From positions 1 through 31,032 of IMG/VR virus record IMGVR_UViG_3300027730_000096: a stretch of 31,032 nucleotides of DNA. One strand, given 5' to 3'. The notes under the pieces were generated by a model. That model was not told where the DNA came from. It saw nothing but the letters and a program-made list of their open reading frames with translations, and searched no databases. Shown here in pieces: positions 1 through 31,032 of the stretch (its first letter is position 1; every line of letters starts with the position of its first letter). This stretch comes from a virus. The position numbers and the translations under genes were made by a program.

Positions 1-211
1 TGCCGGACGCGCCAGTCACAGAAACCGTAGCCGTGCCACCCAGCACCACATCGAGCGCTGCCGCGTTGTAATTCTCCGGCACATCCCACGTGGTGTAGGC
101 GGTTCCAGAGGTCAACCCAGAGGTCAAAACAGCGCTGGTCGGCAGGGTGCCATCAGCCGTGTTGTACGTCTGGATAACGAGGTTTTTGTTGGCGGTGATG
201 CTATTGCTCAT
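1..211 (-). CDS. Virion/tail structural protein, N-terminal part only
   Basis: An open frame begins with ATG at 211 and runs off the left edge without a stop, giving 70 visible residues starting MSNSITANKNLVIQTYN. The visible part is rich in Thr, Ser, Gly and Val, as expected for a beta-structured phage tail or decoration protein. I do not recognise a named family. The ATG overlaps the TGA of the 621-residue gene upstream (TGATG), the same junction used throughout this cluster, which supports the start. It is the last gene visible in the virion operon and follows the two ejection proteins, so a tail-associated role is plausible but inferred from position only. Confidence 0.7.
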   Translation of the reverse strand, partial: MSNSITANKNLVIQTYNTADGTLPTSAVLTSGLTSGTAYTTWDVPENYNAAALDVVLGGTATVSVTGASG

Positions 212-2076
212 CAGATCTTCTCATTCGCAATTGCGAGGGCCTTGGTGATGGCCTCATCTGGAACGTTCAGCAGCGGGCTGGTCCCGTCACTATGCCTGTT
301 TTTCGCCTGCTCTGCAGCCCTAATAAGCTTTTCCGCAACAGACCCCGGATTGCCCACGCGACCACCGCTTTGGCGCCCAACGCGACCACCTGCAAACATA
401 CTGCCCTGCACGGGGGATGGCTCGGTCTTGATGATCGGGTTTTCCTCGTTGCCGACTTGGCTAAGAATATTGGTGACAGGAGGTGCCAGAGCGCCGCCCG
501 CGACGTCACCAGCGCGGCGTGCCAGCCCATATCCGTATGTAAGGTGACCGGCCACTTTTGGAGACGTTCCTGCCAGCGCCAGCGCGGCGTGAGGAACACC
601 AAAGCCCAACGATGTACCAGCGATGCCGCTAAGCGCAAGGTTCTGAATTTTATTTGCCCAGTCGGGCAGCACCTCGCGCACGGTCGCGCCCGCGATAATC
701 TCGGGTAGGTACTTGCCCGAAGGCGTGTTCCTGAGAAGGCCGAATAGGTGCTGGTTCTTGTCCTTTTGGATCGAGCGCACCAGCTTCGACATCTTGGCAG
801 CGGTTGAGCTACGCGAGCTTCCAAACTCAGCGGCAAGGTCTTTCGCGTCTTTACGGTACTGCTGCCACATATCCATCATTTTTGCATATTCAGGCTGGGC
901 ATCCGCGATGGTCTTTCGGACTGATTCAGGAACCTTCCCCATGGCCCCCTTCGCACGCGAGTGCATCAATCCGTCCATGAGATCGCTGTAGCCGACCTTC
1001 ATGTTGTGCAGGCCTGCCGCAGACATGTCGCGCCGATTGTAAAGCCGCCGCTCCATTTCGTTGAGGATATCGGCCTCGCGCGGGAAATCGTCGCTGACCC
1101 ACTCGCCAGACGGCTTTCGGTACGCCTGAAGCTCACTTGCTGCATTACCGATTGAAAGCTCAATGCCGCTCGGGTCCAACTGCTGCGTTGTCAGCCCCGC
1201 CTTGCTACGTGCAAAGTCATCGCTGATGCCCTTGCCCATCTCGTTAACGCTATCTTCCAGCATCTGCGGAAGAGCCGTATTCAAGCTTTCATCGCCCCAA
1301 GCTCCCTTAAAAAAGGCAGCGTTTGCGCCAGCATCGCCTTTGCGCGCCGTGCTCTCAATAAGGTCGAGCGCGGCCTTTGAGGATCCGGAAGTGCCACCAA
1401 GAATTCCCTTGGACAGGCCGCCTCCAAAATCAGTCACCTTGCTTGCTGCACTCATGGCTAACTGCGTCGGATCAAGCGCCGACAGCGCAGTCTCTGCCAG
1501 CTTCCCGGCCTTAGAGAGGCCTGCGGCGCGACCAGCCACACCTACAACGGGGGCGACTGAGGCAACATCCATACCGACGGCGAACGGGTCAGTGGCCAGC
1601 GTCTTCTTCAGCCCGGCGGCGCCGTCAAACAGGTCGCCATAGCGCTGGCCATATTCTTCTCGCAGGGCATTGAAAGACGCTTCGTCCTTCGCCTTTTGTG
1701 CGGGATCCTGCTCCATGAAGTAGCCAGCACCGGCAGAGAGCGCGCCCTTCCCAAGCTCGCCGAGGGCGCCAACCGTTTCAACCGGGTTCATGATGGCTTC
1801 GCCAACATCGCCGATGGTTTTAACAAAACTGCCCGGGGCTGCTGCGAGCATTCGTCCCCCGACCTCACCCCAGCCCATTTTGCCGTAATCAGGCTCCGCC
1901 TCTGGCGCGGCGGAGGCAGGGGCAGCGGATCCGGGGGTGACGCTGTTAGTGGGGACGGAAACAGATTTTGAGGAATCAGACCCATACGCCGGTAGCGCTG
2001 GGAAGCGCTTAGCTAACTCCTTGAGCCTGTCTTCAATAGGCATTTCCTTTTTCGGTATAAGCCACGAGTTTTCCAT
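211..2076 (-). CDS. Internal virion / DNA ejection protein (621 aa)
   Basis: The 621-residue product is Ala/Gly-rich and mostly helical by composition. It has a Pro/Ala/Ser linker near residues 35-62 and two weakly hydrophobic stretches (around 160-187, TDPFAVGMDVASVAPVVG, and around 480-510). These are features of proteins carried in the capsid and ejected into the envelope by podoviruses. The C-terminal 75 residues contain FAGGRVGRQSGGRVG, then a helical segment ending ITKALAIANEKI. The GG-basic motif recurs in other proteins of the window. The gene directly follows the giant transglycosylase-bearing ejection protein (TGATG junction), with GGGAGG about 10 nt upstream of its ATG. Position and composition support an ejection role; I recognise no enzymatic domain. 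Confidence 0.75.
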   Translation of the reverse strand: MENSWLIPKKEMPIEDRLKELAKRFPALPAYGSDSSKSVSVPTNSVTPGSAAPASAAPEAEPDYGKMGWGEVGGRMLAAAPGSFVKTIGDVGEAIMNPVETVGALGELGKGALSAGAGYFMEQDPAQKAKDEASFNALREEYGQRYGDLFDGAAGLKKTLATDPFAVGMDVASVAPVVGVAGRAAGLSKAGKLAETALSALDPTQLAMSAASKVTDFGGGLSKGILGGTSGSSKAALDLIESTARKGDAGANAAFFKGAWGDESLNTALPQMLEDSVNEMGKGISDDFARSKAGLTTQQLDPSGIELSIGNAASELQAYRKPSGEWVSDDFPREADILNEMERRLYNRRDMSAAGLHNMKVGYSDLMDGLMHSRAKGAMGKVPESVRKTIADAQPEYAKMMDMWQQYRKDAKDLAAEFGSSRSSTAAKMSKLVRSIQKDKNQHLFGLLRNTPSGKYLPEIIAGATVREVLPDWANKIQNLALSGIAGTSLGFGVPHAALALAGTSPKVAGHLTYGYGLARRAGDVAGGALAPPVTNILSQVGNEENPIIKTEPSPVQGSMFAGGRVGRQSGGRVGNPGSVAEKLIRAAEQAKNRHSDGTSPLLNVPDEAITKALAIANEKI

Positions 2077-5000
2077 CAGACATTACCTCCCGAGACGAAG
2101 TATCGATAAAGTTTTGGCGGGATTTCGGTTCTGCCCAGAGCTTGCTGTAAAAGGAACTGAGTTTCTTCTGGATTTCCAACGGTCATAGCCTCTTTTATAT
2201 ATCGCGAAGTCGCTGGGTTAGCCAGCAGGTCGCGTAGGTAAGCCACCTCCTGCTTGTACACACTGTCGTACAACCGATTAAACTCGGCCCCCGCAGGGAG
2301 AAGGATCTTTGACGTAGTTTGATCCGCAAAGGCATTATAGAACGACGACCGATCAACAGCGCGCTGATTGTCCACCATAAGCGTGGCCATAACCGTAGCA
2401 GCCGCAATCGGATCCTGCTCAATGTTTGGCATCATACTCGCCGCAGCAGACAGGGCGTTATAGCTGTCCTGATTGGACGCGTTGACCAAGTTGTTGGCCT
2501 GAGCAAATCTCAACTTGTCAAGAATATCTGTCTGCGTAGGCATGTCGGAGAACGCGCCTAACCCCAAGCTTTGGCTGAACAGGTTAAGTGCCTTGGTAAC
2601 CGCAGCGCGCCCAGTACCCTGAGAGCCAAAGCTTTCAAGCGGCGGCGCCCCCATAAGTGCCGAAACGGCCATCGCCTGTTCAGCGATGTTGAGGCGGTTA
2701 TCACCTGCGGTGGATCCGCCAGCTGTAACATCGTTAAGCAGTGCTGCAGAGTTGGTGATCAGATCTCGGGCATTTGGAAAACTCATCATCTTGTCTGCGC
2801 GATCCGTCGCCCCGCTGGCGCGCGGATCCCATATAACATTGGTGGGCTCAGGAGGCTGGCTAGGCGAAACTGGCAAGCCAGAGCCCCCCTCAACCCCGCG
2901 AGGAGCCGTCTGTACGGTCTGCAAAACCGAGGAGACATCGCCTGTGTTAGCGGTGCCGTTCTGGGCCGCAAGCTGCTGCCCTGCGAGGCGCAGGGTGTTA
3001 TTCAGAGCTTCGCCGCCTGCAATGGGCGCGGACGGGTTGGAGAGCCAGTCGTTGAACTGCTGCAGGCCGCCATTGGCGGTGACCACATAATTTACGCCGC
3101 CGATATCTTTTACGCTGCCAGCAACATTCTGGATATCCTGCCCACGGGTCAGTGCCTGTGTCTGTCCGATATCAGCAAGCTGCTTCTGGCGGTTCATGTA
3201 GGCCTCGGCACCGCCACCCACGCCCTCGAGGAGGGCTGTGCCGAGGAACCGGCTCTGCGATCCAGCCATCTTCCCCAGCCCCGACAGGAACGGCAGGATG
3301 ATGTTCTCTGGGCCGCCAGCCTTATCGATCATCTTCTCAAAAAAGTTCTTGCCGCCCAAGCCGGGTGCAGGCTGATCGTTGCGACCGCCATCGGGGCGGG
3401 TGTCGGTTACGTCGCGTGGCGTGATCGCCGCGTCTCCAAGCGTGCCGCCACCGCCGCCACCAGCGCCGGAGCTTTTTTCATTGGTCCATTGCTTAAACTC
3501 ACCAACGGTCATGCCTTTAAGAAACGGATTGGCCGCGATGTAGGACGCCGGAACCAGCCCTTCGATAGCTGCTCCGTCTGGGGCACCAAGCACCCTTGGG
3601 GCGGCACCTGCCCCAAGAAAATGTGCAGCATAAAGATTGCCGTTAGTTGCGGGAATTCCGGCGTTTTTAAGCTGGCGTTCGTTCTCCGCCGTCAATAGGC
3701 GGATTGCCCGCTCCTGTTGCGCCGGATCGTTCTTCCCGTCAGCAGTGAGACCGGCCTCTGGATACTTTTGCGCCAACGCGCTCCACGTCCCGTCCGTGAA
3801 CCCATAGTAGCCAGAAGCAGATGACGTGTTACTCTGAGCGTTGGGGTTATTCCCGCTCTCAGCCGCTTTGATCGCTGCGTAATAAGCCTCGCGATCTCCA
3901 GTTGCGACTGTAGGCGTCCCGGCCCCAGTACCCGCCGCCAGCCCCGGCTCCGCCCCAGCGATAGGCTCTGCAGCGTTTGCCACGTCACGCGTAAGATCAG
4001 TCTGGGCGGGATCGGCAGCAACAATTGCATCGGTAACAGGTGCGGTGGCCGAAGCTGCGCCAAGGCCGCTACGATCAAGGCGCGGCATGGGGATTGGGCG
4101 AAGGAACGCGGCAGCATCAGAGTAATTCGCGCTCGACAACCCCGGCTGCACGCCAGTAAACCGACGATCAAGAGAGACGTTGCGAAGCTCGCTGCCGGGA
4201 TAGGGAGCTACATACGGCGGCAGCGTGAGGCCGCTCTCGACCGGCTCCATCACCTCCCTCCGTGGTTCACCAATCTGAGCCCCCTGCACGCTGGCGTACG
4301 GGTTAAAGACAAGGTCTCTGCGGTCTTCTGCACGCGCTCCCACCGTGCGGGACCAAGCCGGGGGTCCGCCGACAATATAATCAGGCTGCGGGGTAGGGGT
4401 TGGATATTTTTGTGAATATTCGGTTGGACCCAAGAAGAGTTTGTCTACGGCCCGCATATAGGCGTCAGAAACGGCTCCCGGGGTGTTAGCTGCAATACGC
4501 ATGGCTGTGTCAACAGCGCTATCCTCACCTGTGGCCGCGCCGAACATCCTAGTTGCAGCATCCGGCTCCACATAGGCAGCGTTCTCCGCCTGCGCCCCCT
4601 GAACGCTAGCGTTTGGGTTAAACGGGAGTTCCCGAACACGAGGAGAAAATGGCTTCTTCTGGACCCCCTGAACGCTCGTGGGCTGGTCAAGGCGTCGATT
4701 AGTCACAATGTCGTCACTGACAAGCTGAACCGGTCTACCCGCTTCCTTTTCAGCGTTGTAAACGCTGGTGTAGTACTCCCTCCGGATGCGATCAGCATCA
4801 GCGGCGGAAAGGCCAGCCGGTGTGGCTACGGCCAAATTTGGGGGAGCGGCGCGCAACTGCCTCAGAAATTCCGCTTCAGCCGGGCTCACATAAACAGCAT
4901 TTTCCGTCTGAGCCCCCTGAACGCTGGCGTTTTGGTTAAACGGAAGCCCCTGAATACGGGCATTCCCCGTCTGATCCCCCTGAACGCTAGCGTTTTGGTT

Positions 5001-6767
5001 AAACGGAAGCCCCTGAACACGAGTGGGAGCCACATAGGCTGAATTTTCCGTCTGATCCCCCTGAACGCTAGCGTTTGGGTTAAACGAAAGCCCCTGAACA
5101 CGAGTGGGAGCCACATAGGCTGAATTTTCCGTCTGACCCCCCTGAACGCTAGCGTTTGGGTTAAACGAAAGCCCCTGAACACGGGCAGGCGCGGCTACGC
5201 CTCCCGGTGGCAAGTTCTGCGGACCCGGATCGAACAACGCGGACGCGGGCCTTCTGCGCGCATACGCCTCCAGTTCTTGCTCCAAAGTGAGGGGTTCCGG
5301 ACGGCCACCGCCTGCATACCCATGCCGCCCGGCAACGCCGCCGTTGGCCATGAACATGCCAACGATTTTTGCAAGGTCAGCAACCTTGCTCAGGCCGCTC
5401 TGGGGCTGCTGCGGATCTTTCGGCTGCAGCAATTCAGGCGTCTTCTGGGAGCCGGGTTCCTGAACGGGCACATAACCCGTATTCTGGGGGTCGTAAGGCA
5501 TGCCGCCAGCGGCAAGCCCAGAGCGGGGTGTGCCGCCGCGCGAGAAGCCATATTTTTCCCACATATCACCGGCTTTTTCGCCGGTATCGGCGAGGCTCGA
5601 TGCCATGTCCACGATGTCGGAGGCATCGGTCTGGCTCGGGCCTTGAACCGGGTCAGCGATCATAAGCTGGCCGACCGGCAAGTTCGCCTGCGGGACAAAC
5701 CCGCCAGAGCCGATCCCCGCAGAGCCCCGCCCATAAGCCCCTGCATTCGGATCCATGCCGCCAAAAAGCTGCTGCATGACCATGGTGGCGTAGTCCGTCT
5801 GCGGGGAGCCGCCATCAGCGTAGCCCTCGCCCATATGCCCCGCACTGACGTGACCGCCCATGCTCTCGGGGACGAGGCCGCCGCGCCGATAGCCGACGTC
5901 CTCGATGACCTTTCCGCCACGCTTGAGGCCAGAGAAGAACCCGGCAGGCGACGTCGTCTGAGTGGTCGAGCCGGACAGCGCACCAGTGCCCATGCCAATG
6001 TTGCCAAGGAACTGAGTGGTTTGGAACGGATAGGCGCGTTCCTGCTGGTACTGGTTGTAGAGGGCAGACTTACCGGCCTGCTCAGTCTGCTGCTCCTGCG
6101 TGCCAGCGCCGAGAAGCGCCTGACTTCCAGCCAGCGCGGCGCCCTGAGCGCCAGCACCCAACTGACCGATGCTCTGCCCGCCCTGCAACAGCCGGGCAAG
6201 GTTCGCCTGACGGGACGCAAGATCCGCGCTCTGCTGCTGCTGGGCAACGCCCTGAGCCTGCATGTAGCCCTGATTGAGCAGGTTGCCGATGGTGCTGCCC
6301 ATGCCCATCATCTGCTGCCGGTTCAGGTTGGCAGCGGCAATGCCGGACCGGTCGCCAAACCCAGCGCCTGACTGGATGGCCGTGCCAAGCGCGCCAGACA
6401 TATCCTGCCGGTTTTGCTGACCCAGAATGTCCGCCGTGCTCTGCACCACGTTTTGCAGATACGGGCTCATGTACTTGTTGGTGTCGAGTTCGCCCAGATT
6501 GGCGGGGCCCATACCCCCCAATGTCGCTGCTGCACCAGCCTGAAAATACGGCTGCGCCATGCCGGACGCCTGCCCGATCTGGCCAATTGCCGCATTTTGC
6601 GTTTCCGTCATCGGCGCAACAAAGGCACTTGGGTCGTAGGAATATGCCTGAAACGGCGTCGAGGCTACGTTTTCGGCCCTTGCGTTGACCGCGTTATAGC
6701 GAGCCAGCACCTCCGGCGGAATCTGTACGGAAGATGTGGAGGTTTGAGTTTTTCCGCCGCCAGACAT
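2076..6767 (-). CDS. Giant ejection/internal virion protein with lytic transglycosylase domain (1563 aa)
   Basis: This is the largest gene in the window. Residues 1-270 form a Gln/Ala/Gly-rich helical domain of the kind found in phage DNA-injection proteins. Residues about 283-330 and 473-490 carry GG-basic motifs (LKRGGKV, GYRRGGLV, YADGG). Residues 528-629 are four tandem copies of an Asn/Gln/Val-rich repeat, with degenerate copies up to about residue 836. Residues about 958-1100 match soluble lytic transglycosylases: the likely catalytic Glu970 lies in AAESGNNP, followed by GYYGFTDGTW and an AAHFLGAGAA motif. The C-terminal 400 residues are helical and unassigned. The inferred role is capsid-carried protein that helps DNA cross the cell wall by cutting peptidoglycan, comparable to T7 gp16. 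Its ATG overlaps the stop of the GNAT gene (TAATG). Confidence 0.88.
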   Translation of the reverse strand: MSGGGKTQTSTSSVQIPPEVLARYNAVNARAENVASTPFQAYSYDPSAFVAPMTETQNAAIGQIGQASGMAQPYFQAGAAATLGGMGPANLGELDTNKYMSPYLQNVVQSTADILGQQNRQDMSGALGTAIQSGAGFGDRSGIAAANLNRQQMMGMGSTIGNLLNQGYMQAQGVAQQQQSADLASRQANLARLLQGGQSIGQLGAGAQGAALAGSQALLGAGTQEQQTEQAGKSALYNQYQQERAYPFQTTQFLGNIGMGTGALSGSTTQTTSPAGFFSGLKRGGKVIEDVGYRRGGLVPESMGGHVSAGHMGEGYADGGSPQTDYATMVMQQLFGGMDPNAGAYGRGSAGIGSGGFVPQANLPVGQLMIADPVQGPSQTDASDIVDMASSLADTGEKAGDMWEKYGFSRGGTPRSGLAAGGMPYDPQNTGYVPVQEPGSQKTPELLQPKDPQQPQSGLSKVADLAKIVGMFMANGGVAGRHGYAGGGRPEPLTLEQELEAYARRRPASALFDPGPQNLPPGGVAAPARVQGLSFNPNASVQGGQTENSAYVAPTRVQGLSFNPNASVQGDQTENSAYVAPTRVQGLPFNQNASVQGDQTGNARIQGLPFNQNASVQGAQTENAVYVSPAEAEFLRQLRAAPPNLAVATPAGLSAADADRIRREYYTSVYNAEKEAGRPVQLVSDDIVTNRRLDQPTSVQGVQKKPFSPRVRELPFNPNASVQGAQAENAAYVEPDAATRMFGAATGEDSAVDTAMRIAANTPGAVSDAYMRAVDKLFLGPTEYSQKYPTPTPQPDYIVGGPPAWSRTVGARAEDRRDLVFNPYASVQGAQIGEPRREVMEPVESGLTLPPYVAPYPGSELRNVSLDRRFTGVQPGLSSANYSDAAAFLRPIPMPRLDRSGLGAASATAPVTDAIVAADPAQTDLTRDVANAAEPIAGAEPGLAAGTGAGTPTVATGDREAYYAAIKAAESGNNPNAQSNTSSASGYYGFTDGTWSALAQKYPEAGLTADGKNDPAQQERAIRLLTAENERQLKNAGIPATNGNLYAAHFLGAGAAPRVLGAPDGAAIEGLVPASYIAANPFLKGMTVGEFKQWTNEKSSGAGGGGGGTLGDAAITPRDVTDTRPDGGRNDQPAPGLGGKNFFEKMIDKAGGPENIILPFLSGLGKMAGSQSRFLGTALLEGVGGGAEAYMNRQKQLADIGQTQALTRGQDIQNVAGSVKDIGGVNYVVTANGGLQQFNDWLSNPSAPIAGGEALNNTLRLAGQQLAAQNGTANTGDVSSVLQTVQTAPRGVEGGSGLPVSPSQPPEPTNVIWDPRASGATDRADKMMSFPNARDLITNSAALLNDVTAGGSTAGDNRLNIAEQAMAVSALMGAPPLESFGSQGTGRAAVTKALNLFSQSLGLGAFSDMPTQTDILDKLRFAQANNLVNASNQDSYNALSAAASMMPNIEQDPIAAATVMATLMVDNQRAVDRSSFYNAFADQTTSKILLPAGAEFNRLYDSVYKQEVAYLRDLLANPATSRYIKEAMTVGNPEETQFLLQQALGRTEIPPKLYRYFVSGGNV
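4881..5186 (-). repeat. In-frame tandem repeat, 27-27-21-27 codons
   Basis: Four head-to-tail copies lie inside the giant ejection gene: 5186-5106, 5105-5025, 5024-4962 (6 codons shorter) and 4961-4881. The protein core is RVQGLxFNxNASVQG followed by xQTENxAYVxP. At DNA level the segment with CTAGCGTTTxGGTTAAACG on the plus strand is nearly identical in the copies near 4982, 5063 and 5144, so the expansion looks recent. Diverged copies of the core recur near 4601 (LPFNPNASVQG), 4676 (SVQG only) and 4287 (VFNPYASVQG). The repeat separates the N-terminal domain from the transglycosylase domain. Confidence 0.93.
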
Positions 6768-7273
6768 TATGGGATCTCGCTAGAAGGTTCACTGAGGCCG
6801 GTCTTGGCCCCATAGAGAAAATAAACGCCCGCAGGCTGCCCAAACATCCGCTCATACAAGCGGATTTTCGCTTCAGTCCGACTGTTTGAAAGCACCCCGA
6901 TGGATAGCGGAATAGCAAGCTCTTCGGATGCCGTTTTCGCAAACTCACACAGCTTGCGAGCCCGCCCACCCTTCGCATTGCGATATTCTGGCGCCACAAA
7001 CACCGCTCGTTCTTCCAGTACAGGTTCGTTACTGTACCATAGCTCTCCAAAAACCAAAAGGATGGCACCCTCAAAAGCCTCACCCGGCTTTCCAATAATC
7101 CCCACGATGCCGTTCTGCCTAGTTAGAGCGCCCCACATGGTTTTGAGGAGCTTGGAGACGTCCGGAGAGATGAATGCGTTTTCCTGCGTGGCGTCGAGCG
7201 CCAGATGCATCATGCCGTCGAGGTCTGCGGGGGTTCCTACACGAACTGCGGGGGCGTCTGCGGCGTCTGTCAT
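6767..7273 (-). CDS. GNAT-fold N-acetyltransferase-like protein (168 aa)
   Basis: The sequence fits the Gcn5-related N-acetyltransferase fold. The N-terminus RVGTPADLDGMMHLA resembles the first strand and helix. The core strand VFVAPEYRNAKGGRA (residues 91-105) is the motif A region that binds the acetyl-CoA pyrophosphate. The segment 125-145, with SRTEAKIRLYERMF, resembles motif B. Length is typical for a single GNAT domain. It lies between a YVIP-motif protein and the giant ejection protein, with AAGGA a few bases upstream of the ATG, so it is expressed with virion genes. The substrate is unknown; a virion protein or a host target are both possible. Confidence 0.8.
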   Translation of the reverse strand: MTDAADAPAVRVGTPADLDGMMHLALDATQENAFISPDVSKLLKTMWGALTRQNGIVGIIGKPGEAFEGAILLVFGELWYSNEPVLEERAVFVAPEYRNAKGGRARKLCEFAKTASEELAIPLSIGVLSNSRTEAKIRLYERMFGQPAGVYFLYGAKTGLSEPSSEIP

Positions 7274-7283: not shown

Positions 7284-7874
7284 TTAATCGACTTTTGGAC
7301 CCGGTAGCTTTTGCAGGGTCTTGATGGTCTTTGCCCGATACTTTTTTACAAACTCATCCAGAATCCGATGCCCATGATCGAGGTCTCCTTCCCCGATCTT
7401 CACGACATCCTCCGGAGGAATAACGTACTCTCCACCAGCGGCGACGATGGGTACCGTGTCCACCTCACCACCACCCGCCTTTGCGACGGCGGGCGCGCCG
7501 TAGGGCATATCTGTCCCCATGTCTGGAGCCCCATAGGGCATTTTGCTGAAGATGCTGTTGGCAATCTTGAACCCGGCCATGCTGTTGCCTTCGCCCATGG
7601 CCGAGATGATATCCGCCGGGATCACGTAAGATCCGGACTTCACGTGCATCGGCAGGTGGTCGGTGCGCCCCGCCACGTTGCTGTGGATCGGCCCAACATG
7701 AACCTTCCCCATGGCGCCGCCCTTGGGCCGTGCGACCTGAGCTCCTCGAGCATGGGCCTCGCGCGCCGTGCTCAGCGCAGCCGCGACGGCCTGCCCCTGC
7801 GGGCGCCCGGCATGCATCATCTCGCTGATGTTGCCGCTTATCGTTTCTTGCGAATTTCCGCGCTTAAGGGGCAT
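7284..7874 (-). CDS. Phage protein with duplicated YVIP/GEG motif (196 aa)
   Basis: The N-terminus MPLKRGNSQETISGNI and the following HAGRPQGQAVAAAL segment (22-34) match a small-protein motif common in phage virion clusters; I know no function for it. Residues 71-109 and 138-176 are an internal duplication: both contain a P-hydrophobic pair, a Gly, YVIP, about eight residues, GEG and then a short helix. Between them MPYGAP occurs twice (112-117 and 122-127). KAGGGEV at 132-138 is another GG motif of the kind found across this window. The gene ends with a basic helix. It sits 1 nt after the upstream tail gene. It is not long enough to be a tape measure protein. Confidence 0.72.
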   Translation of the reverse strand: MPLKRGNSQETISGNISEMMHAGRPQGQAVAAALSTAREAHARGAQVARPKGGAMGKVHVGPIHSNVAGRTDHLPMHVKSGSYVIPADIISAMGEGNSMAGFKIANSIFSKMPYGAPDMGTDMPYGAPAVAKAGGGEVDTVPIVAAGGEYVIPPEDVVKIGEGDLDHGHRILDEFVKKYRAKTIKTLQKLPGPKVD

Positions 7875-20419: not shown

Positions 20420-20420
20420 T

Positions 20421-21109: not shown

Positions 21110-21120
21110 GATGCCCTCGG

Positions 21121-21149
21121 GAAAGAAAAGAGTGGGGCCGAAGCCCCAC
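21121..21149 (-). terminator. Intrinsic terminator after the capsid unit
   Basis: Read on the minus strand, GTGGGGC-TTCG-GCCCCAC forms a 7-bp stem with a stable UUCG tetraloop and is followed by TCTTTTCTTTC. It lies between the basic GGR gene and the DUF6321-like gene. The U-tract is interrupted by two C, so some read-through is expected. That would be needed to reach the downstream tail genes unless they have another promoter. Confidence 0.82.
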
Positions 21150-21152
21150 CAC

Positions 21153-21449
21153 TTAGTTCATCTGGATCTTGCGCCCGGCGGGGGCGGTACCCGAAGCAGC
21201 CGAAGACAGCGGGTTCATGTTGGAGCCCGTGCGGCCACCCGACTTGCGAGCCGTGCGCCCACCGTGCTTCTTGGCGGCCATGCCGTCAGCCTTGCCGACA
21301 GTCTTGCCACCGTGCTTACGCTCTTCGGCAGCGTCGTTCACCTTGCTCTGGTAGGTGTAACGCTGGTTCTTGTGAGCGAGATCCTGCTCATATTCCTTAG
21401 TGCCAACAGTGGCTTCGCCACCCGTAGCACGACCCTTGCGACCCTTCAT
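21153..21449 (-). CDS. Basic GGR-motif protein following the capsid genes (98 aa)
   Basis: Very rich in Lys, Arg, Gly and Ala. It starts MKGRKGRATGGEATVGTKEY and has an acidic/basic helical stretch (YEQDLAHKNQRYTYQSKVND). It then carries KHGGKTVGK, KKHGGRTARKSGGRTGSN and ends AGRKIQMN. TARKSGGRT is close to MARKSGGRT and LARKSGGRA in the 404-residue protein at 26153-27367. AGGAGG lies 5 nt upstream of the ATG. It is the last gene before a terminator in the capsid unit. A role inside the capsid, such as contacting DNA or other GG-motif proteins, is a hypothesis. Confidence 0.78.
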   Translation of the reverse strand: MKGRKGRATGGEATVGTKEYEQDLAHKNQRYTYQSKVNDAAEERKHGGKTVGKADGMAAKKHGGRTARKSGGRTGSNMNPLSSAASGTAPAGRKIQMN

Positions 21450-21465
21450 ATGATCCTCCTACGGA

Positions 21466-21924
21466 TTACGGGGCATTGATGGCTTGGACATAACGAACGA
21501 CAAGCGTGCCGACACCGCCGGTACCGCCGCTCGAGAGAACGAAGATGCGAACGTCGCTCGAACCTACGTTGATCCACTTGCCGGTCCGTGTTGCATCGGT
21601 ACCCGGAGAGAGATTGGACAGACCAATCGCCTGCGGGCCAGTAGCCGCACTGACAAGCTCAGTCGCAGTGGCAGAGGTGCCAACGCTAACAGTGGCCGAG
21701 CTTGCCCAGCCAGTGCTCGCCAGCACGTCAATGCCAACGATAAGGCTGTAAGCCGGGACGACGACACCCGTAGCGAGGGCGGTTGTCGACCCCGCCTGAG
21801 TGACCGACTGGGCCTGAGCCATCACAACGTAGCCGGTGTCGGCCACGTCCTGCCCGAGCGTAGTGCCCGAGGTATTCAGGATCGGACCCGAAATAAGAGG
21901 GCCGGTAAAATGAGAAGCACCCAT
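21466..21924 (-). CDS. Small virion protein downstream of the capsid gene (152 aa)
   Basis: Starts MGASHFTGPLISGPILNTSG, a pattern I associate with small virion proteins encoded next to the major capsid protein in many phages. The middle (AYSLIVGIDVLASTGWASSA) and the end (GTLVVRYVQAIN) are beta-rich and low in charge. It could be a decoration or head-surface protein. AAAGGAAAAG precedes the ATG, and it lies in the four-gene capsid unit between the capsid gene and the GGR protein. It has no enzymatic motif. Confidence 0.75.
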   Translation of the reverse strand: MGASHFTGPLISGPILNTSGTTLGQDVADTGYVVMAQAQSVTQAGSTTALATGVVVPAYSLIVGIDVLASTGWASSATVSVGTSATATELVSAATGPQAIGLSNLSPGTDATRTGKWINVGSSDVRIFVLSSGGTGGVGTLVVRYVQAINAP

Positions 21925-21943
21925 TGGCTTTTCCTTTCATTGT

Positions 21944-21966
21944 GGCCCCCCCTCGAAAGAGGGGCC
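21944..21966 (-). other. G/C-rich RNA hairpin after the capsid gene
   Basis: In the 52-nt gap after the major capsid gene, the minus strand carries CCCCTC-TTTC-GAGGGG with flanking GG and GGGCC that can extend the stem across a G bulge. No U-tract follows (next bases ACAATGAAAGG), so it is not a standard terminator. It may stabilise the 3' end of capsid mRNA or lower translation downstream. Confidence 0.5.
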
Positions 21967-21976
21967 TTGGCCCAGA

Positions 21977-22888
21977 TTAAGACGGGAGCGAGCCCCAGAT
22001 AGCGCGCCAATTGTAGTAGCCAAACGAGTAGCGCTCGTAACCCTTCACCAGAAGGTTGTCGGTCACGAAGTCCACCTGCATGTCCGTCTCGAACTTGATG
22101 CGTTCCATGTACGACAGGCCGTCGATGTTGGTCAGCAGGAACCAGTTGCGCGACGAGGTCAGGAAGTCGTTAGTGAGGAACCCTTCCGGCAGACCGCCGC
22201 TGGTGCCCTTGATCGCGTTCACGTCGTTGTCCGCAGTGCCCGGGCGCAGTTCCGTCTGGGTGAGGCGGATGGCAACCGGCTCAAGCTGCGGGGGAACGAC
22301 GAGCTTGCGGGCACGCGCGAAGACCTTCAGACCAGCCTGATCCTTGAAGCTCGTACGAACCGAGATCATGCCGTTCAGCAGGGTGGCTTCGTTCAGGTCC
22401 ACGTCAACCGACGGACGGTTGGCAACAGTGCCGCCGTCAATCGGGTGGGCGGTGCTGATCAGAGACACGCCATCACCGCCAACGCTGTTGTTGTACGTGG
22501 TGGCCGTGTTCAGGATCGACGCGCCGTAGATTTCCTTGGTCTGCTGGAAGCTCTCGATCAGACCGAGGTTCGACGGGTGGAACTGGGTCTTGTAGAGGTT
22601 GTCATCAATCGCCTTGCGAGTGATGGCATAGCCCAGACCGATTTCCACGTGTTCCTGATTGTACACGTAGCGTTCGCCAGCGCCGTTGTCGAAAGCGGTC
22701 TGGCCGCCCTCGGTCTTCAGCTGCGCGAGGCCGAGGTACCGCATTTCGGCGGTACGCTCGAGAGCCATCTTGCTGTCGTGCTTGGTGAAGATCTTGTCGT
22801 ACTGAGATGGGATCATCTCGTACTTGCCCTCAACGCCCCGCAGACCGGGGAGGAGAAGGTCTTTGATTGCTGAAAGATTAACAGCCAT
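21977..22888 (-). CDS. Major capsid protein, Mu gpT-like HK97 fold (303 aa)
   Basis: The protein matches the Mu-type major head subunit family. An N-terminal arm has LLLPGLRGVEGKYEMIPSQY. An E-loop-like region follows (GERYVYNQEHVEIGLGYAIT). The hallmark RKLVVPPQLEPVA (194-206) comes before NDVNAIKG (221-228), WFLLTNIDGL and a C-terminal RYSFGYYNWRAIWGS. Length is typical. A good AAGGAG lies 9 nt upstream of the ATG. The gene is preceded by a decoration-like gene and by scaffold and co-chaperonin genes, the usual head context. No prohead protease fusion or delta domain is apparent, in keeping with a separate scaffold gene. Confidence 0.93.
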   Translation of the reverse strand: MAVNLSAIKDLLLPGLRGVEGKYEMIPSQYDKIFTKHDSKMALERTAEMRYLGLAQLKTEGGQTAFDNGAGERYVYNQEHVEIGLGYAITRKAIDDNLYKTQFHPSNLGLIESFQQTKEIYGASILNTATTYNNSVGGDGVSLISTAHPIDGGTVANRPSVDVDLNEATLLNGMISVRTSFKDQAGLKVFARARKLVVPPQLEPVAIRLTQTELRPGTADNDVNAIKGTSGGLPEGFLTNDFLTSSRNWFLLTNIDGLSYMERIKFETDMQVDFVTDNLLVKGYERYSFGYYNWRAIWGSLPS

Positions 22889-23988: not shown

Positions 23989-23997
23989 CACACGCAG

Positions 23998-24022: not shown

Positions 24023-24046
24023 ATTAGAGCGAGGATGGTGGAAGGG

Positions 24047-25467: not shown

Positions 25468-25477
25468 GAGCCTCTCC

Positions 25478-25876
25478 TCAGAAAATCAAATCGGGGTGCG
25501 ATGCCTTGCCGTAGATGCGGACATCTTCCAGCAACCGGCAATTCACGCCATTAACGACCAGTGTTGCGCCATCCGAGGCGCGGAAACCAACCCAGTCGCC
25601 CGCCTTGACCTGAACGCCGCCAAACCACTCGCTGTCGGTAAATGCACCGGGGCCAACCTTCAGCACGTAGCCAACCTTCCCCTGATATAGGTCTTCGTCG
25701 CGAACTTTATCAGTCAGGTAGATGCCGCCCTTGGTCTTTTCGGGGCGCACATAAATTGCGACCAGCACCTTCGGGCCAAACAGGTCGAAGCCGGAAATGT
25801 TTCCAACCCTGTCGACGATGTCCTTTGCGGGATCCTCGTCGTGATACATCGAAGTGATAGGCACGTTTCTCTCCAT
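25478..25876 (-). CDS. GroES-like co-chaperonin encoded by the phage (132 aa)
   Basis: Residues 35-122 match the Cpn10/GroES fold. GPKVLVAIYVRPEKTKGGIY contains the first strand and the KTxGGI mobile-loop start, with IYL where GroES has the hydrophobic tripeptide that docks on GroEL. VLKVGPGAF and VKAGDWVGF are the usual strands around the roof loop. RLLEDVRIYGK is the closing strand. It is longer than host GroES (97 residues) because of an N-terminal extension of about 30 residues. The ATG at 25876 shares a base with the upstream TGA. Phage co-chaperonins such as T4 gp31 help the host chaperonin fold capsid protein. The position two genes before the capsid unit suggests the same job. Confidence 0.88.
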   Translation of the reverse strand: MERNVPITSMYHDEDPAKDIVDRVGNISGFDLFGPKVLVAIYVRPEKTKGGIYLTDKVRDEDLYQGKVGYVLKVGPGAFTDSEWFGGVQVKAGDWVGFRASDGATLVVNGVNCRLLEDVRIYGKASHPDLIF

Positions 25877-26061
25877 CAACGTTTTAAGACATTCTCACGT
25901 GCTGCCTCGAGCAAGGTCAGCGCCATGCGCAACCCCTCGATCTGCCCTGTGAGTTTTTTGTAGTCCTGCATGTCAGCCAGCAGGCCAGCGCAGACGCTGT
26001 CACGAAGCGCCTCGATATTCTGCTCGATGAGCTTCTGAAGCTCCGAAACAAGCCTCTCCAT
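25876..26061 (-). CDS. Short helical protein (61 aa)
   Basis: A 61-residue, almost wholly helical peptide (MERLVSELQKLIEQNIEALR, GQIEGLRMALTLLEAARENV) with heptad spacing of Leu/Ile, likely a coiled-coil oligomer. GGAGAGA precedes the ATG, and the TGA overlaps the co-chaperonin start. No family is recognised. It could be a small head-assembly factor; the coupling to the co-chaperonin is the only functional hint. Confidence 0.72.
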   Translation of the reverse strand: MERLVSELQKLIEQNIEALRDSVCAGLLADMQDYKKLTGQIEGLRMALTLLEAARENVLKR

Positions 26062-26088
26062 ACTCTCTCCGTCTCTCCATATTTGGTT

Positions 26089-26122: not shown

Positions 26123-26152
26123 GTAACACGTCAGAGCATGACCACTGACGCG

Positions 26153-27367
26153 TTAATTCCTGCTTTTCTGGATCTCGGTCTTCTCAAGCCGACCGAGGCC
26201 GCTACCGGCGCCCGCGTCCATGTCCTTGTACGAACGATAGACGCCATGCCCGGCACGCCCGCCAGACTTGCGCGCAAGCGGGCCCATAGCCGGGGGAGGG
26301 ACGCCGAGACCCGGAGGAAGGGTGCCTCCCATGAGGCCGGGAGGCAACCCCATGGGAGGCATACCAGCGCCGCCAGCCATCGGAGGGGCGACAGGCATAG
26401 GCGGACGCGGCATCGGGCCGGGGAGCCCCATCGGAGGAGGCATGCCCTCCGGATGCTTTTCACCGGCAATGATGTTGATGTGGATGTTGGTCTTGCCCTT
26501 GGTGCGACCGCCGCTCTTGCGAGCCATCCGGCCACCAGTCGGGCGCGTGCCGCCGTCGTAATTGGCTTCGGCCTTGCCACCCTTCTTCTTCCCCATCGCC
26601 ATAGCCATCGGCGAGAGCATCTTGGGGTCTTTCACGGCCATGGCGACCGGGCTCATGTAGTCCATGGGGCCGCCGTCCTTTTTGCCCGCACGCCCGCCAC
26701 ACGCCTTGCAGGTGCAGCCCTTGTCGTGCTTGGCCATCTCGGCCTTGATGAGCTTCTTGTCCATGGCGGCATCCTCATGGATCTTGCCGCCCTTTTTGTA
26801 GCCGCCGGTATGGGGGTAGCCACGCTCTTCGTTGGCTTCCTTCAGGTCGCGGTTCATCAGGCTGTCGGCGGTCAGGGCCTTGCCACCATCCTTGCGGTTG
26901 GTGCGGCCACCGCGCTTCTCAGGCGCGAACGGGCGATCAGTCGGCAGCTGATCGAGCATGCGCTCGCGGCGCGGCATCGGCATTGGCGGCTTCGCAGTGC
27001 CACGGTTAAGGCGCGGCCTCGGAACCGGAGCATTTTCGGCTTCATCTGCTTCGATGATGCGGCGAATTTTGGCCTCGCGGGCCATCCGAGCAGCCTCTTC
27101 GGGACCAAACTCAGGCGTGCCCATCTCGCCGCCGTAGTTCTTGCCCTTGCGCGGCTTCTTACCGGCATGCTGGGCGCCATTCGCACCCTCGACCTTGCCG
27201 CCCTGCTTGAACGCACGACGCGATATCGGGCGCATGCCCACCTTCGCGTTGGTGTTCATCGTGGGCTCGGTCCAGCCGGACGCGTCAACGCTCCCCTTGG
27301 TGGGAGCAGCACGACCCTGCGCCTTCTCCTTCATAGCCTTGCGGGCCGTTTTTGCCATTTCGCTCAT
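26153..27367 (-). CDS. Very basic Gly-Lys/Arg motif-array protein (404 aa)
   Basis: This low-complexity, strongly basic protein contains about ten GG-basic motifs. Examples are FKQGGKV, KRGGRTNRKDGGKA, GYKKGGKI, CKACGGRAGKKDGGP, KKKGGKA, TGGRMARKSGGRTKGKTN and LARKSGGRAG. A DKGCTCKACGG patch near the middle could bind metal. A Met/Pro/Gly-rich stretch (MPPPMGLPGPMPRPPMP and more) separates the last two motifs. KGKTNIHINIIAGEK is the only clearly beta-like piece. AGGAG precedes the ATG. The same motifs occur in six or more other proteins here. I cannot assign a function; DNA condensation or a hub for GG-tagged proteins inside the head are hypotheses. Confidence 0.8.
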   Translation of the reverse strand: MSEMAKTARKAMKEKAQGRAAPTKGSVDASGWTEPTMNTNAKVGMRPISRRAFKQGGKVEGANGAQHAGKKPRKGKNYGGEMGTPEFGPEEAARMAREAKIRRIIEADEAENAPVPRPRLNRGTAKPPMPMPRRERMLDQLPTDRPFAPEKRGGRTNRKDGGKALTADSLMNRDLKEANEERGYPHTGGYKKGGKIHEDAAMDKKLIKAEMAKHDKGCTCKACGGRAGKKDGGPMDYMSPVAMAVKDPKMLSPMAMAMGKKKGGKAEANYDGGTRPTGGRMARKSGGRTKGKTNIHINIIAGEKHPEGMPPPMGLPGPMPRPPMPVAPPMAGGAGMPPMGLPPGLMGGTLPPGLGVPPPAMGPLARKSGGRAGHGVYRSYKDMDAGAGSGLGRLEKTEIQKSRN

Positions 27368-27388
27368 TCGAGCATGCTCCTAGCTAGG

Positions 27389-29467
27389 TTACGGGCGTCC
27401 CCGTTTAAGCTGCCTTGCGATTTTCACGGCATTCTGGACAGCATCAGTGCCGAATTTCGTGTCCCCAGCCACTTTTCCACCTTTAGCATAGATTTCGCCT
27501 GTTATAATCCGCTTCAAAGCGTCTTCAGGCGCAATTCCATGCACGGCAGCGCGTGAAGCTATGTGATCAGCAAGCATTTCGATCTTGGGAGCACCGATTG
27601 GAGAGGTAACACCGGTAGAACCAGAGCCAGCGCCCCACAAACGCCCCTGCGCAGGCACAGATTGCAGACCAACCTGAGCAGCAATTCGATTTTTGAACCA
27701 TGGCGCGACCTGCTGGTACTCGGGCATTTTCATCGAAACGCCCGGGTCGGAGCTTGTCCGCGTGTCGCCCATGCCAAGGATGCGGGTAAAGTGCGCGTCG
27801 GGCACCGGCAATGTAGTTTGAAATCCTGTCTGAGGCACGCCAGACGCCGGAATGTAGGTCGGCACTTTTGGAGTGCCCATGTCTACCTTGCCGCTCTGAA
27901 GAAAACTCTTCATCGGTCCGGAATGCGCGGTAGGATGGTACATGTGGCCAACGACATCGCGAATATCTTCGGGGAAATCAGCCCCACGCCTGCTTACCGG
28001 AAGCCCGGCATACTTTTCAAAATCACCAAAACGACCCTTGCCAGCGAGGTAATATGCCGCCATGCCGCGATTAATCTCGGTTGGCACCTCAGACCCGGGG
28101 CTCGCCATGCCCGTCAGCGTGTTTTGCATGATAAACCGCCTCTTAGCCTCTTCGGGGCCAAGTTCAAGCTCCATGGCCCGGTAAAGAGGGTTCATAACGT
28201 ACCACGCATCCATGCCATGGCGCAGGACCTGATGCTTTCCGGCCTCGTCAAGAATATCGATCAGGCGCTGCTCGTTCTTTTTATTTATAATCTTTTCGGT
28301 GGCCGCAGACCCCTTCGGGTTGGGGGCCATGGCGAGGCTGGGCTCCATATTTCCCACGCGGTTTTCAGCCATGTCGTAAAGATCAGCGCGGGTAACGTTG
28401 AAAAGCTTCTTCAGGTTTGGGCTTTCAGGGGCAACGCGAGAGGCGGCTTCAGCCGCCATCTGCCTTGGGTTGCCGTAAATGCCGGGATATTCGTATCCAA
28501 TAGGATCTTTAACCGTAGTGCGGCCAAAGCCACCACCGCCGCTAGGCGGCTTGCGCCCAGACGGGGTCATGCGGTTATAAATATAAGACCGCTCAACATC
28601 GCTTAGCTTGTGGAAGTCGGCTAATTTTTCGAGGTTGAACCGGTAGCCTTGCTCCTGCGCCGCCCGCGTAAATGGTGCAGCAATGTTATCGACAAGCCCT
28701 CGGAATAGATCGGATGGCTCGCCGGAGCTTCCTTGAAGCCGTGCGCGAGCGCTCTGTCCACCCACGACTTTTTTGAGGTAGTCTTTTGCATCTGTGAGAT
28801 CCCCATTCGTGCGGGCCATAAAACGTTCAGGCATATTAGCAGCCTGACCGATGGCCGCAATGTCATCGACAAATTTATCGTGCTCTTCATCGGGCCCAAA
28901 ATGGGAGAACTTTGCTGCCTTACCATCCCGAGTGAACGTAAGGTCGCGGCCACGAGCGGACGCTTCCTTCATGATGCTCATGCGCTCAGCAGGCGACAGC
29001 GTCTTGCCGTTGCCGAGAAGCAGGGTCGGCGTGCCGGACTGAAGATCAACTTCCGGGTGGTGGATTGAATGCACTGCCGCATCCTGCAACATCCCAAACC
29101 CAAGGGCCGAAGCCAGCCGCTTTGCCTTTTGGGGGGTCATGTTGGGGGCGTCAATGGTAAACGAAGGCTCTGGTTCCCCCAGCCACGTCCCCGTCACAGG
29201 CGTGATCGTGTAGTCACGGACGCCAAAATGCTTGGCCACGAAGTCTCGCACGCTTTTGCCATCAAGGATCTGCAACGCTGAGCGCGACACCGCGTCAATG
29301 TTTTCCTGATTGATAGTTTTGCCTGAGATCTGGCCGTAATTAACGCCGGGCTTGGGCGAAACCTGCGCTGCCGGGACGTTTTCCCTTGAAAATGTCTCAG
29401 CCAGCTTCGACGGCTTGAACGACTTGGCCGCAGAAAGCGCCTGAGAAATTTTATTGTCGTCGTCCAT
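27389..29467 (-). CDS. Large unknown virion-region protein with GG-tag C-terminus (692 aa)
   Basis: The N-terminal part contains KRLASALGFGMLQDAAVHSI, then GKTLSPAERMSIMKEAS and LTFTRDGKAAKFSHFGPD. This order resembles an accessory domain I have seen in large phage polyvalent proteins. Residues 220-560 are mixed helical with TFSG-type linkers and many Pro/Gly. No catalytic motif is recognised. The last 33 residues are YAKGGKVAGDTKFGTDAVQN followed by AVKIARQLKRGRP, closely parallel to the end of the neighbouring gene. The ATG shares a base with the upstream TAA (TAATG). It lies upstream of the scaffold, so it may be a protein carried in the head. Confidence 0.75.
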   Translation of the reverse strand: MDDDNKISQALSAAKSFKPSKLAETFSRENVPAAQVSPKPGVNYGQISGKTINQENIDAVSRSALQILDGKSVRDFVAKHFGVRDYTITPVTGTWLGEPEPSFTIDAPNMTPQKAKRLASALGFGMLQDAAVHSIHHPEVDLQSGTPTLLLGNGKTLSPAERMSIMKEASARGRDLTFTRDGKAAKFSHFGPDEEHDKFVDDIAAIGQAANMPERFMARTNGDLTDAKDYLKKVVGGQSARARLQGSSGEPSDLFRGLVDNIAAPFTRAAQEQGYRFNLEKLADFHKLSDVERSYIYNRMTPSGRKPPSGGGGFGRTTVKDPIGYEYPGIYGNPRQMAAEAASRVAPESPNLKKLFNVTRADLYDMAENRVGNMEPSLAMAPNPKGSAATEKIINKKNEQRLIDILDEAGKHQVLRHGMDAWYVMNPLYRAMELELGPEEAKRRFIMQNTLTGMASPGSEVPTEINRGMAAYYLAGKGRFGDFEKYAGLPVSRRGADFPEDIRDVVGHMYHPTAHSGPMKSFLQSGKVDMGTPKVPTYIPASGVPQTGFQTTLPVPDAHFTRILGMGDTRTSSDPGVSMKMPEYQQVAPWFKNRIAAQVGLQSVPAQGRLWGAGSGSTGVTSPIGAPKIEMLADHIASRAAVHGIAPEDALKRIITGEIYAKGGKVAGDTKFGTDAVQNAVKIARQLKRGRP

Positions 29468-31032
29468 TACCGCCTCGTGAGGTTGCGGGCCAGCGCCATG
29501 GCTTTGTGTACCATAGGATTGTCGTTTAGAGCCATACCGCCGCGCTTGTACATCGGAAGGCCCTTCTTGACGGCGTCCCGCATGCCGTCGGTGATTTCGA
29601 GGGCGTGCCCCTTGTAGCCCTCAGTATCGTCGCCACCCGACGCAGACGGCAGCGCGTGCGAGAACATTTGCACCCCGGGATGATCAGGGTCTAGGCTCTT
29701 GGCCAGCTTGTTCATCTGGGTCGGCAGGATCTGATCGTAGAACGACTTCATGCCGCTCCCCTGCTCCCCGTCGAGGCCGTACATATCGGCATTCGCCTGC
29801 CCGGGGGAGAGCACCAGCTTGTTGTAGCCGCCGTTTACCGCCTCGGTGAGCGCATGCTTGAGCGCGAGGCTAGTCCATCCCTGCGTTGAATTGACAAAGG
29901 GGCCCTGCGGCGGCTTGTCGGGGCCAGACGGACCATTAGCGCTTGTATCCTGAAATCCGTGCTTGCGCCCTGCCTGCGCCCAGTCAGACTGGATCTCCTC
30001 GACGTGCAGGGCTCGCGGGGCCTTGTAGCCCTTCATCACATTGTTGCGCCAACCCTTAGCGCGGGACAGGTTCTGCGCCTCTTCCTTGGTGATGGTTCCT
30101 TTGCTCAGCGCCAAATCAGCGGCGCCACTGCCCCAGTTGGCGGGCTCAGATCCGAGGGACTGGGTGAGACCGGGGTCGGACAGCATCTTCTCGACTGTTC
30201 GATCATGCGCCTCTAGGTCGGGTGGCTCGATGCGGTCGCCCATGCGGATGTGCGCCACCACATTCTTGTGGCCGGGCCAGTGCTTTTGCTCCCTGAAACT
30301 GTAGCTGGTCTCGGGTATCTTCAGCAGGTGCTCCCGGTAATTGACGCTCCCGGGCAGGGTGTAATCCTCGAACTGAGCGGGCTGCTCAGCGTCGGGATCG
30401 GATGCGTCGTAGCTGGAGTGGTCTTCGCTCAGCAGCTTATCCACACCGATGTTGGGCATCTTTCTGTAGAAGTGCTGGAAGAGTTCCTCCGAGGTCACGC
30501 TGGGCTTGCCCGAGAACGCCTCGTCGAAGCCTGACTGGGTGAACTCCTCGGGCTTGACGCCCGCCTTTGCCAGCATGGCGCGCATCTGCTGCGGGGAGCC
30601 CTTCTTCTGGCTCAACTGCCGCGCAGCTTCGGCGCCACGAGAGTAGAAATTCTTGAAATTGACGACCCGCTCAGGCAATTTTCCGGTTGCGCCACCGTCG
30701 GCATAGCCAATGCTGCCCCCATCAGCCTTATGAGCCTCAGTTTCGAGCCCCGGAAAGCCCATGGCGCTCATGATCTGCGCCACGGGATGGGTGGAAACGT
30801 GGTTTGGCTCGATTTTGCCGCCGGTTGCAGCGTGCTGCATGGCCTGCATCACGTCCTGATGCGTGGTTTCCTCGTCCCCGGCCTTATCCCACACCGCATG
30901 ATGCGCGTCCGCAAGCGGCTTCCACTGCCAATCCTCGAGGTTCTTGGTCTTGGGGTCGGTGTAACCGCCAAGAAGGCCCCCGCCTGCCTTCCCGGGGCGA
31001 TACGCCTTTGCGGTCAGGAGGGCCTTGCGGGT
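29467..31032 (-). CDS. Polyvalent-protein-like large protein, 5' end outside the window (522 visible aa)
   Basis: The frame is open to the right edge, so the N-terminus is missing; a GTG at 30894 is internal and not a start. Visible residues 1-46 include KAYRPGKAGGGLLGG. GG motifs follow (ADGGSIGYADGGATG near residue 125). Around 338-346 is RALHVEEIQSDWAQAGRKHG, then GWTSLALKHALTEAVNGGYN with LVLSPG and SFYDQILPTQMNKLAK. These blocks are hallmarks of an uncharacterised domain in large phage polyvalent proteins. The end is KRGGMALNDNP then AMALARNLTRR. Its function is unknown. It may be injected with DNA or belong to the virion interior. Confidence 0.78.
   Translation of the reverse strand, partial: TRKALLTAKAYRPGKAGGGLLGGYTDPKTKNLEDWQWKPLADAHHAVWDKAGDEETTHQDVMQAMQHAATGGKIEPNHVSTHPVAQIMSAMGFPGLETEAHKADGGSIGYADGGATGKLPERVVNFKNFYSRGAEAARQLSQKKGSPQQMRAMLAKAGVKPEEFTQSGFDEAFSGKPSVTSEELFQHFYRKMPNIGVDKLLSEDHSSYDASDPDAEQPAQFEDYTLPGSVNYREHLLKIPETSYSFREQKHWPGHKNVVAHIRMGDRIEPPDLEAHDRTVEKMLSDPGLTQSLGSEPANWGSGAADLALSKGTITKEEAQNLSRAKGWRNNVMKGYKAPRALHVEEIQSDWAQAGRKHGFQDTSANGPSGPDKPPQGPFVNSTQGWTSLALKHALTEAVNGGYNKLVLSPGQANADMYGLDGEQGSGMKSFYDQILPTQMNKLAKSLDPDHPGVQMFSHALPSASGGDDTEGYKGHALEITDGMRDAVKKGLPMYKRGGMALNDNPMVHKAMALARNLTRR

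Follow-up and report, generated by a model that had tools for sequence, protein, structure and literature searches.

To our knowledge, the route by which large multi-domain effectors enter phage heads has been worked out for few phages. Precedents include the N-terminal signal of T4, propeptides of giant phages and C-terminal regions of single proteins (passages in PMC5512222, PMC9026906 and PMC7411985). The T4 signal, the capsid targeting sequence (CTS), is an N-terminal peptide of about 10–20 residues that is removed by the prohead protease (passages in PMC9026906 and PMC7411985), and for the propeptide of the SPN3US protease gp245 and the C-terminal region of the N4 virion RNA polymerase, a requirement for head entry has been proposed or reported (passages in PMC7411985 and PMC5512222). 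Encapsulin targeting peptides, by the account in part of PMC7925596, are located at the C-terminus behind flexible linkers of 10–20 residues, are hydrophobic and basic, and are modular. Finally, the polyvalent proteins of phages are held to be likely packaged (passages in PMC5512222). Here, we describe a short C-terminal sequence, in the following referred to as the tag, which recurs on otherwise dissimilar proteins in the virus record IMGVR_UViG_3300027730_000096 (positions 1 to 31,032, i.e. the whole 31,032-base stretch that we analyzed, hereafter the window) and in related genomes, which form a widespread group of uncultured viruses of bacteria. We further describe a GG motif that often precedes this tag, and discuss whether both are parts of a code that loads variable proteins into the head, a reading to which we assign slightly less than an even chance.

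All 34 genes that our own gene-calling script found in the window are located on the minus strand. Among the window proteins there are matches to families of virion structural, capsid, transglycosylase, ejection and GroES proteins. The comparison is based on a panel of 20 genomes (the first set), which comprises the window, the complete 61-kb genome MW202675.1 and 18 IMG/VR contigs and yields 1409 called proteins; genes in the panel and in the additional loci described below were called by the same script, and the sequences are largely metagenomic contigs. Five first-set genomes and four of the distant genomes considered below were covered to 60,000 bases, and one was covered for 40,000 of its 40,038 bases. 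We use the term cargo for the large variable proteins encoded between the portal gene and the gene of a protein with an array of GG motifs (the array protein); in G009, the assignment was made manually on account of an apparently permuted contig.

An initial annotation of the window had listed seven GG-bearing proteins of the virion region and stated that they share no other similarity. For three of them this is wrong, as a C-terminal helix pattern, absent from that annotation, is common to all three:

29467..31032, minus strand: cargo-type protein, a relative of MW202675.1 42531-45074 in the portal–array interval; its 5' end lies off the contig
29470..29550, minus strand: C-terminal tag of this protein (residues 495–521), YKRGG..VHKAMALARNLTRR, with a predicted helix at residues 507–517
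27389..29467, minus strand: cargo-type protein; the syntenic counterpart is G014 20139-22280
27392..27490, minus strand: C-terminal tag of this protein (residues 660–692), YAKGGKV..VQNAVKIARQLKRGRP
211..2076, minus strand: internal virion or ejection-type protein, a distant relative of phiM5 gp31
214..396, minus strand: C-terminal module of this protein (residues 561–621), a GG-basic pair followed by predicted helices that end in ITKALAIANEKI

Many cargo C-ends carry an amphipathic stretch of this kind, such as VDRALAVTRRFTK, VQNAVKIARQLKRGRP or VHKAMALARNLTRR, and column counts over 48 tags give the pattern [VI][DE][RK]A[LM]x[LIV][TA][RS], which was sought in the last 45 residues of each protein. 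In the first set, where the pattern was made, it is found in 27 of 45 cargo proteins and in 10 of 17 proteins of the 211-2076 type, compared with 7 of the 1347 others, whereas shuffled C-ends predict it in 0.11 of the 45 and 0.23 of the 17. Since it had been made by eye, the pattern was frozen and a held-out test was run on 109 of 160 loci, from which 20 loci on first-set contigs, 31 loci shorter than 6000 bases and all proteins cut at the 3' end had been excluded. Here, the tag is present in 22 of 34 distinct cargo C-ends, in 11 of 1104 C-ends of other proteins (including two that likewise belong to the 211-2076 type) and in 19 of 20 C-ends of the 211-2076 type, a count that is not fully independent because the protein of locus L082 is identical to that of the window and its counterpart in L084 is 97% alike. 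The corresponding raw counts are 23/35 for cargo, 18/1450 for others and 29/30 for the 211-2076 type. Furthermore, in cargo of at least 300 residues the pattern occurs in 24 of 37 C-ends, compared with 12 of 685 non-terminal windows. It is found in 14 of 20 cargo clusters whose pre-tag regions are mutually dissimilar (E-value 1e-3), and in five of six such clusters of the 211-2076 type, a set that was partly hand-picked.

Pairwise comparisons show that protein bodies were exchanged with the tag kept. Protein 27389-29467 and its counterpart in G014 match at an E-value of 1e-4 solely in the last 33 residues (76%), and the match of protein 211-2076 to its counterparts in the loci L086 and L087 is restricted to the last 67 residues (88%). 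Recent copying of DNA 3' ends does not account for this sharing overall, since identical tag residues are encoded by different codons in 866 of 1258 pairs between genomes, a fraction of 0.69 compared with 0.68 for independent choice; the tags of the window and G014, which share nearly the same codons, are a recent case. Judged by these codons, the protein sequence of the tag is kept while its DNA has drifted, and synonymous sites are saturated.

The tag has a helical moment of 0.48, compared with 0.32 after shuffling, and a net charge of +1.9, and its helical form is predicted by structural models. In those of 211-2076 and 29467-31032, the GG lies in a stretch with a predicted local distance difference test score (pLDDT) below 50 and is followed by a helix; the C-terminal helices of the 211-2076 model have block mean pLDDT values of 53–69. 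A fold search with both models against the PDB gave no match at an E-value of 0.001 or below, the best match of the 29467-31032 model being an acetyltransferase (E-value 0.013). PDB sequence searches gave one weak match for the 211-2076 family (E-value 0.095) and none for the capsid protein. Neither of the window's two cargo proteins has a Pfam match at the family cut-off, and 29467-31032 likewise has no match in NCBIfam.

The GG motif is the second shared element. The initial annotation had described it as [KRA]xGG[KRV] in the three proteins above and in four others:

26153..27367, minus strand: array protein with 15 GG sites, net charge +36 and 15% Gly (family of 20)
21153..21449, minus strand: small basic protein with three strict GG-basic sites (family of 11)
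7284..7874, minus strand: phrog_2423-type protein with GG sites (family of 19)
2076..6767, minus strand: transglycosylase or DNA-ejection-type protein (phrog_4067, phrog_4287) with many GG sites at residues 281–490

All quoted GG strings are found in the proteins named. The pattern itself, however, occurs in five of the seven and is absent from 211-2076 and 7284-7874; its match in 29467-31032 is ATGGK, which is none of the strings quoted for that protein, and two proteins outside the list (6767-7273 and 19575-20225) contain one match each. Some of the listed strings, such as YADGG, represent a more acidic flavor seen within cargo proteins. Across 36 window proteins, the pattern exceeds composition (18 sites compared with 3.6 expected from shuffles), but not in each protein: the excess stems mostly from 26153-27367 (8 vs. 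0.64) and 21153-21449 (3 vs. 0.19), and the three remaining listed proteins that contain it reach p values of 0.021, 0.18 and 0.22 in composition shuffles. As the excess sits mostly in two proteins, a motif common to seven is not proven by the window on its own; the related genomes do support one.

In MW202675.1, a looser form of the motif has 33 sites on the virion side, compared with 18.5 expected, and 5 elsewhere, compared with 5.2 expected. A position profile that was trained solely on the array family (370 GG sites), and evaluated against shuffles that keep every GG in place, gave 100 hits outside this family in the panel, compared with 21.6 expected, and most of these fall in capsid-region genes. 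Nine families with at least two hits hold 81 of the 100: the 21153-21449 type (27 vs. 2.6 expected), cargo (16 vs. 2.6), the 7284-7874 type (10 vs. 2.6), the transglycosylase (8 vs. 1.6), three families at the position of 211-2076 (14 vs. 0.7) and two small families (6 hits). Of the remaining 19, cargo and large ejection-type proteins account for ten, and at least five lie in proteins that are not recognizable as virion parts. A composition artifact is thereby rejected for the motif family as a whole; single window proteins may still fit composition. Likewise, the frequency of [YF]xxGG per 1000 residues is 3.92 in the array family, 1.69 in cargo and 1.46 in the transglycosylase family, compared with 0.15 elsewhere (39 occurrences, some of them in unclustered large virion-type proteins).

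The placement of the motif is also uneven. Cargo relatives carry ART-PolyVal, Peptidase M15, GNAT and InPase domains; the first three are combined in one protein, MW202675.1 40315-42534, and InPase is found in three other related proteins. For seven proteins that contain Pfam domains, 32 motif occurrences fall outside the domains, nine of them no more than 15 residues from the edge of an annotated domain, and one falls inside. Ends of segments that are shared among cargo proteins lie at most 10 residues from a motif in 93 of 519 cases, compared with 42.2 expected (z 8.5), and near a non-motif GG in 83 cases, compared with 53.3 expected (z 4.2), where the ends in this comparison are not mutually independent. 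This suggests that GG marks places where cargo bodies were exchanged.

Two gene annotations in MW202675.1 appear misleading: 45116-47812, annotated as 'type I restriction enzyme', holds an InPase domain and the tag, and 47829-48977, annotated as 'yenB', is the array protein.

What might such a combination of motif and tag do? It is not quite an even bet that a GG hinge and a C-terminal helix together form a two-part code for loading the head with variable cargo and ejection proteins. The first part would be the GG hinge. In multi-domain cargo, this hinge is YADGG-like and largely avoids the annotated domains; in small basic proteins, at C-ends and in the array protein, it resembles [KR]xGG[KR]. 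The second part would be the amphipathic C-terminal helix of 10–15 residues, which the GG segment often separates from the rest of the protein. Freed by the hinge, this basic helix would dock during prohead assembly on an inner partner that varies little, which may be the capsid protein, the scaffold or the portal; a near-constant partner would in turn allow differing cargo and ejection proteins to be packed and later delivered with the DNA. Since new bodies would be joined at or near GG junctions, retention of the C-terminal tag would keep them packable. The first candidate for the partner is the capsid protein, because it is near-constant while the cargo varies:

21977..22888, minus strand: major capsid protein, with 86–93% identity across the 80 best IMG/VR relatives retained

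In its more specific form, in which the helix behind the GG hinge is a capsid address and bodies recombined at GG are packed and injected with the DNA by a hitherto undescribed cargo-loading code, the proposal is a tentative one. The common tag on unrelated virion-region proteins that the initial annotation had envisaged would thus persist in changed form, the better tag being the amphipathic helix, often behind a GG hinge. We found neither the motif nor the tag described in titles and abstract openings of the open-licence PMC literature, and a term search of the main text of the polyvalent-protein paper turned up no GG motif or C-terminal tag (PMC5512222, in part).

The sequences themselves show the motif and where it sits, the tag, its retention through the exchange of bodies and its conservation as protein. 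The helical form, presence in virions, the binding partner and the loading function are inferred, and packaging of the tagged proteins is plausible. Virion presence is suggested by the family context and by phiM5 gp31, whose record notes its detection in the phage particle and to which 211-2076 is 26% identical over 72% of the query (E-value 1e-6). By this homology, 211-2076 resembles the ejection proteins of podophages (T7 gp14-16, P22 gp7/16/20 type), as does its transglycosylase neighbor by its family; 211-2076 differs in having no confident fold or sequence match to solved structures. Packaging is further supported by ART-PolyVal and InPase in the cargo relatives, as these are domains of polyvalent proteins (Iyer et al., 2017). 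Cargo relatives resemble the latter in being large, encoded near the portal gene and, in MW202675.1 40315-42534, in uniting several characteristic domains, including M15 and GNAT.

Among known targeting signals, the T4 CTS and the encapsulin peptides come closest. Like the CTS, which passages in two sources describe on internal proteins and on Alt, the tag is a short terminal peptide common to otherwise different proteins that may be packaged, and Alt is an ADP-ribosyltransferase, just as cargo relatives here carry an ART domain (PMC9026906, PMC7411985). In contrast to the CTS, the tag sits at the C-terminus, in many cases after a GG hinge, and is not known to be cleaved; it is found in the last 45 residues and rarely elsewhere in the same proteins. 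The signals of SPN3US gp245 and the N4 polymerase, as far as passages in PMC7411985 and PMC5512222 describe them, are long and serve one protein per phage, whereas a tag of 10–15 residues is found here on many proteins. With encapsulin peptides, as outlined in part of PMC7925596, the tag shares its C-terminal position, its hydrophobic and basic character and its modularity. For 31 of the 48 cargo tags, a GG is found no more than about 22 residues before the tag, in what may be a flexible linker according to two low-confidence models. By contrast, column counts over the 48 tags show no GSL-type core, the tag is predicted to be helical, and its container would be a DNA-filled phage head. The best reading by analogy is therefore that the tag works like both the T4 CTS and the encapsulin peptides and, given its position and the missing GSL core, belongs to neither class. 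If this is true, packaged effectors could be picked from sequence alone by a short shared C-terminal tag, cargo swaps between related phages without loss of packaging would be explained, and the tag would be a portable address for putting proteins into laboratory phage heads.

Several observations weigh against a loading code. We found no virion mass spectrometry for the window's phage group and identified no binding partner for the tag. Eighteen of the 45 first-set cargo genes lack the pattern; some of these proteins end at GG or carry a close variant, and some have nothing similar. The upstream GG is likewise confined to the 31 of 48 cargo tags mentioned above. Tags are not uniform within one genome, so a single receptor is not proven. 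The two models have mean pLDDT values of just 55 and 57, and in that of 29467-31032 the last 30 residues, including the tag helix, are below 50. Finally, the tag is barely seen beyond the window's own group. Among 12 distant capsid relatives (named phage records, some cultured and some metagenomic, with capsid proteins 31–42% identical), 3 of 965 proteins carry the pattern, none of which exceeds 84 residues or is portal-side cargo, and MW202545 has a cargo-like gene without it. In phiM5, DC33, HMO-2011, HTVC010P, RHph_TM3_14A and CF418P1, 4 of 374 proteins match, one of which is a 646-residue protein annotated as methylase, and none is annotated as an internal virion protein; phiM5 gp31 itself, noted in the particle, ends in KKKKGGE without a helix. 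As a feature of cargo, the helix tag is thus seen solely in the window's own group. By contrast, HTVC027P, 023Pt_psg01 and DSL-LC04 encode small basic proteins with GG-basic motifs between portal and GroES; in MW202545, Pag-Yong1 and, again, DSL-LC04, such proteins are encoded beyond the capsid gene. Because these distant relatives carry GG-basic proteins without tagged cargo, the motif seems older and wider than the tag. The part of the HTVC027P transcriptome paper concerned with structural proteins held nothing useful here (PMC12753301).

Alternatively, GG might merely be a flexible hinge and the basic C-terminal helix might act after delivery, in membrane contact, channel assembly or DNA binding, so that conservation of the tag would reflect this later function instead of loading. 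In favor of this are the location of the sites outside domains (32 to 1) and near the ends of shared segments (93 of 519 vs. 42.2 expected), as well as the amphipathic, basic character of the tag. T7 gp16 offers a parallel, since infectivity requires five C-terminal residues of this protein that carry a positive charge (PMC8954989, in part). Nevertheless, the GG flanks are more specific than those of a generic linker (100 profile hits vs. 21.6), the motif exceeds non-motif GG at segment ends (z 8.5 vs. 4.2), and one tag on very different bodies is harder to explain by a single action on the delivery side. We consider this alternative unlikely, if worth keeping in view.

It is far less probable that the GG sites are cleavage sites, at which multi-domain cargo would be cut as a polyprotein in the prohead or in the new host to release single domains. 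The short motif does precede some domains: InPase begins nine residues after GG in three related proteins, and sites 51, 290, 555 and 735 of MW202675.1 40315-42534 lie within 15 residues of GNAT, M15 or ART edges. P1 DdrB, moreover, is processed before packaging (PMC5512222, in part). Yet we could name no protease that would do the cutting, the array would be broken into about 15 pieces, and the flanks of GG vary between acidic and basic.

The array protein had been proposed as a hub, and a polycationic, probably disordered protein might indeed condense DNA or collect GG-bearing proteins. All 20 members have net charges of +27 to +60, 10–16 motifs and 13–18% Gly and are poor in aromatic residues; DNA condensation is compatible with this charge, and the small basic GG proteins between portal and GroES in the three distant phages named above would fit as well. 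A role as hub is nonetheless highly improbable, since across 16 genomes neither more cargo genes (rho -0.52) nor greater cargo length (-0.37) nor more cargo motifs (-0.28) go along with a higher motif count in the array, array length correlates with cargo length at just +0.15, the array protein has no C-terminal helix tag, and cargo-internal motifs are more acidic.

Apart from this, the array protein has no match in Pfam, PHROGs or NCBIfam and a single PDB sequence match (E-value 0.074), and a search across bacterial genomes found it in two metagenome-bin contigs. RGG/RG-box nucleic-acid-binding proteins are characterized by clustered RGG triplets; with one RGG among the 15 GG sites of 26153-27367, assignment to this class was rejected. 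The protein also contains a C-x-C-K-x-C-x-G-like cluster (CTCKACGG), similar to clusters in MW202675.1, G009 and G018, that may bind metal. At the C-end of the array family, a block GAGSGxGRLEK is duplicated in G005, G006, G009, G012 and G019, and a similar end, GQGSGVGRLKRSK, is found in a small protein of the Planktothrix phage Pag-Yong1 (L247:12243-12500).

Four further observations concern other genes and records. A second shared module with GG sites spans residues 44–99 of 29467-31032 and recurs at about residues 275–330 of InPase-bearing cargo. Within protein 7284-7874, an element resembling D-x-[LV]-P-[MI]-x-V-x-x-G-[SE]-Y-V-I-P occurs twice, and a similar element is found at the end of the GG-bearing 023Pt_psg01 protein 49423-50802. 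The Limnohabitans phage DC33 (PQ492659.1) is filed under Inoviridae, although its record is 39 kb long with 52 annotated genes. Lastly, a GroES-like gene (25478-25879 in the window) is located beside the scaffold gene and was recognized in 8 of the 12 distant capsid relatives examined.

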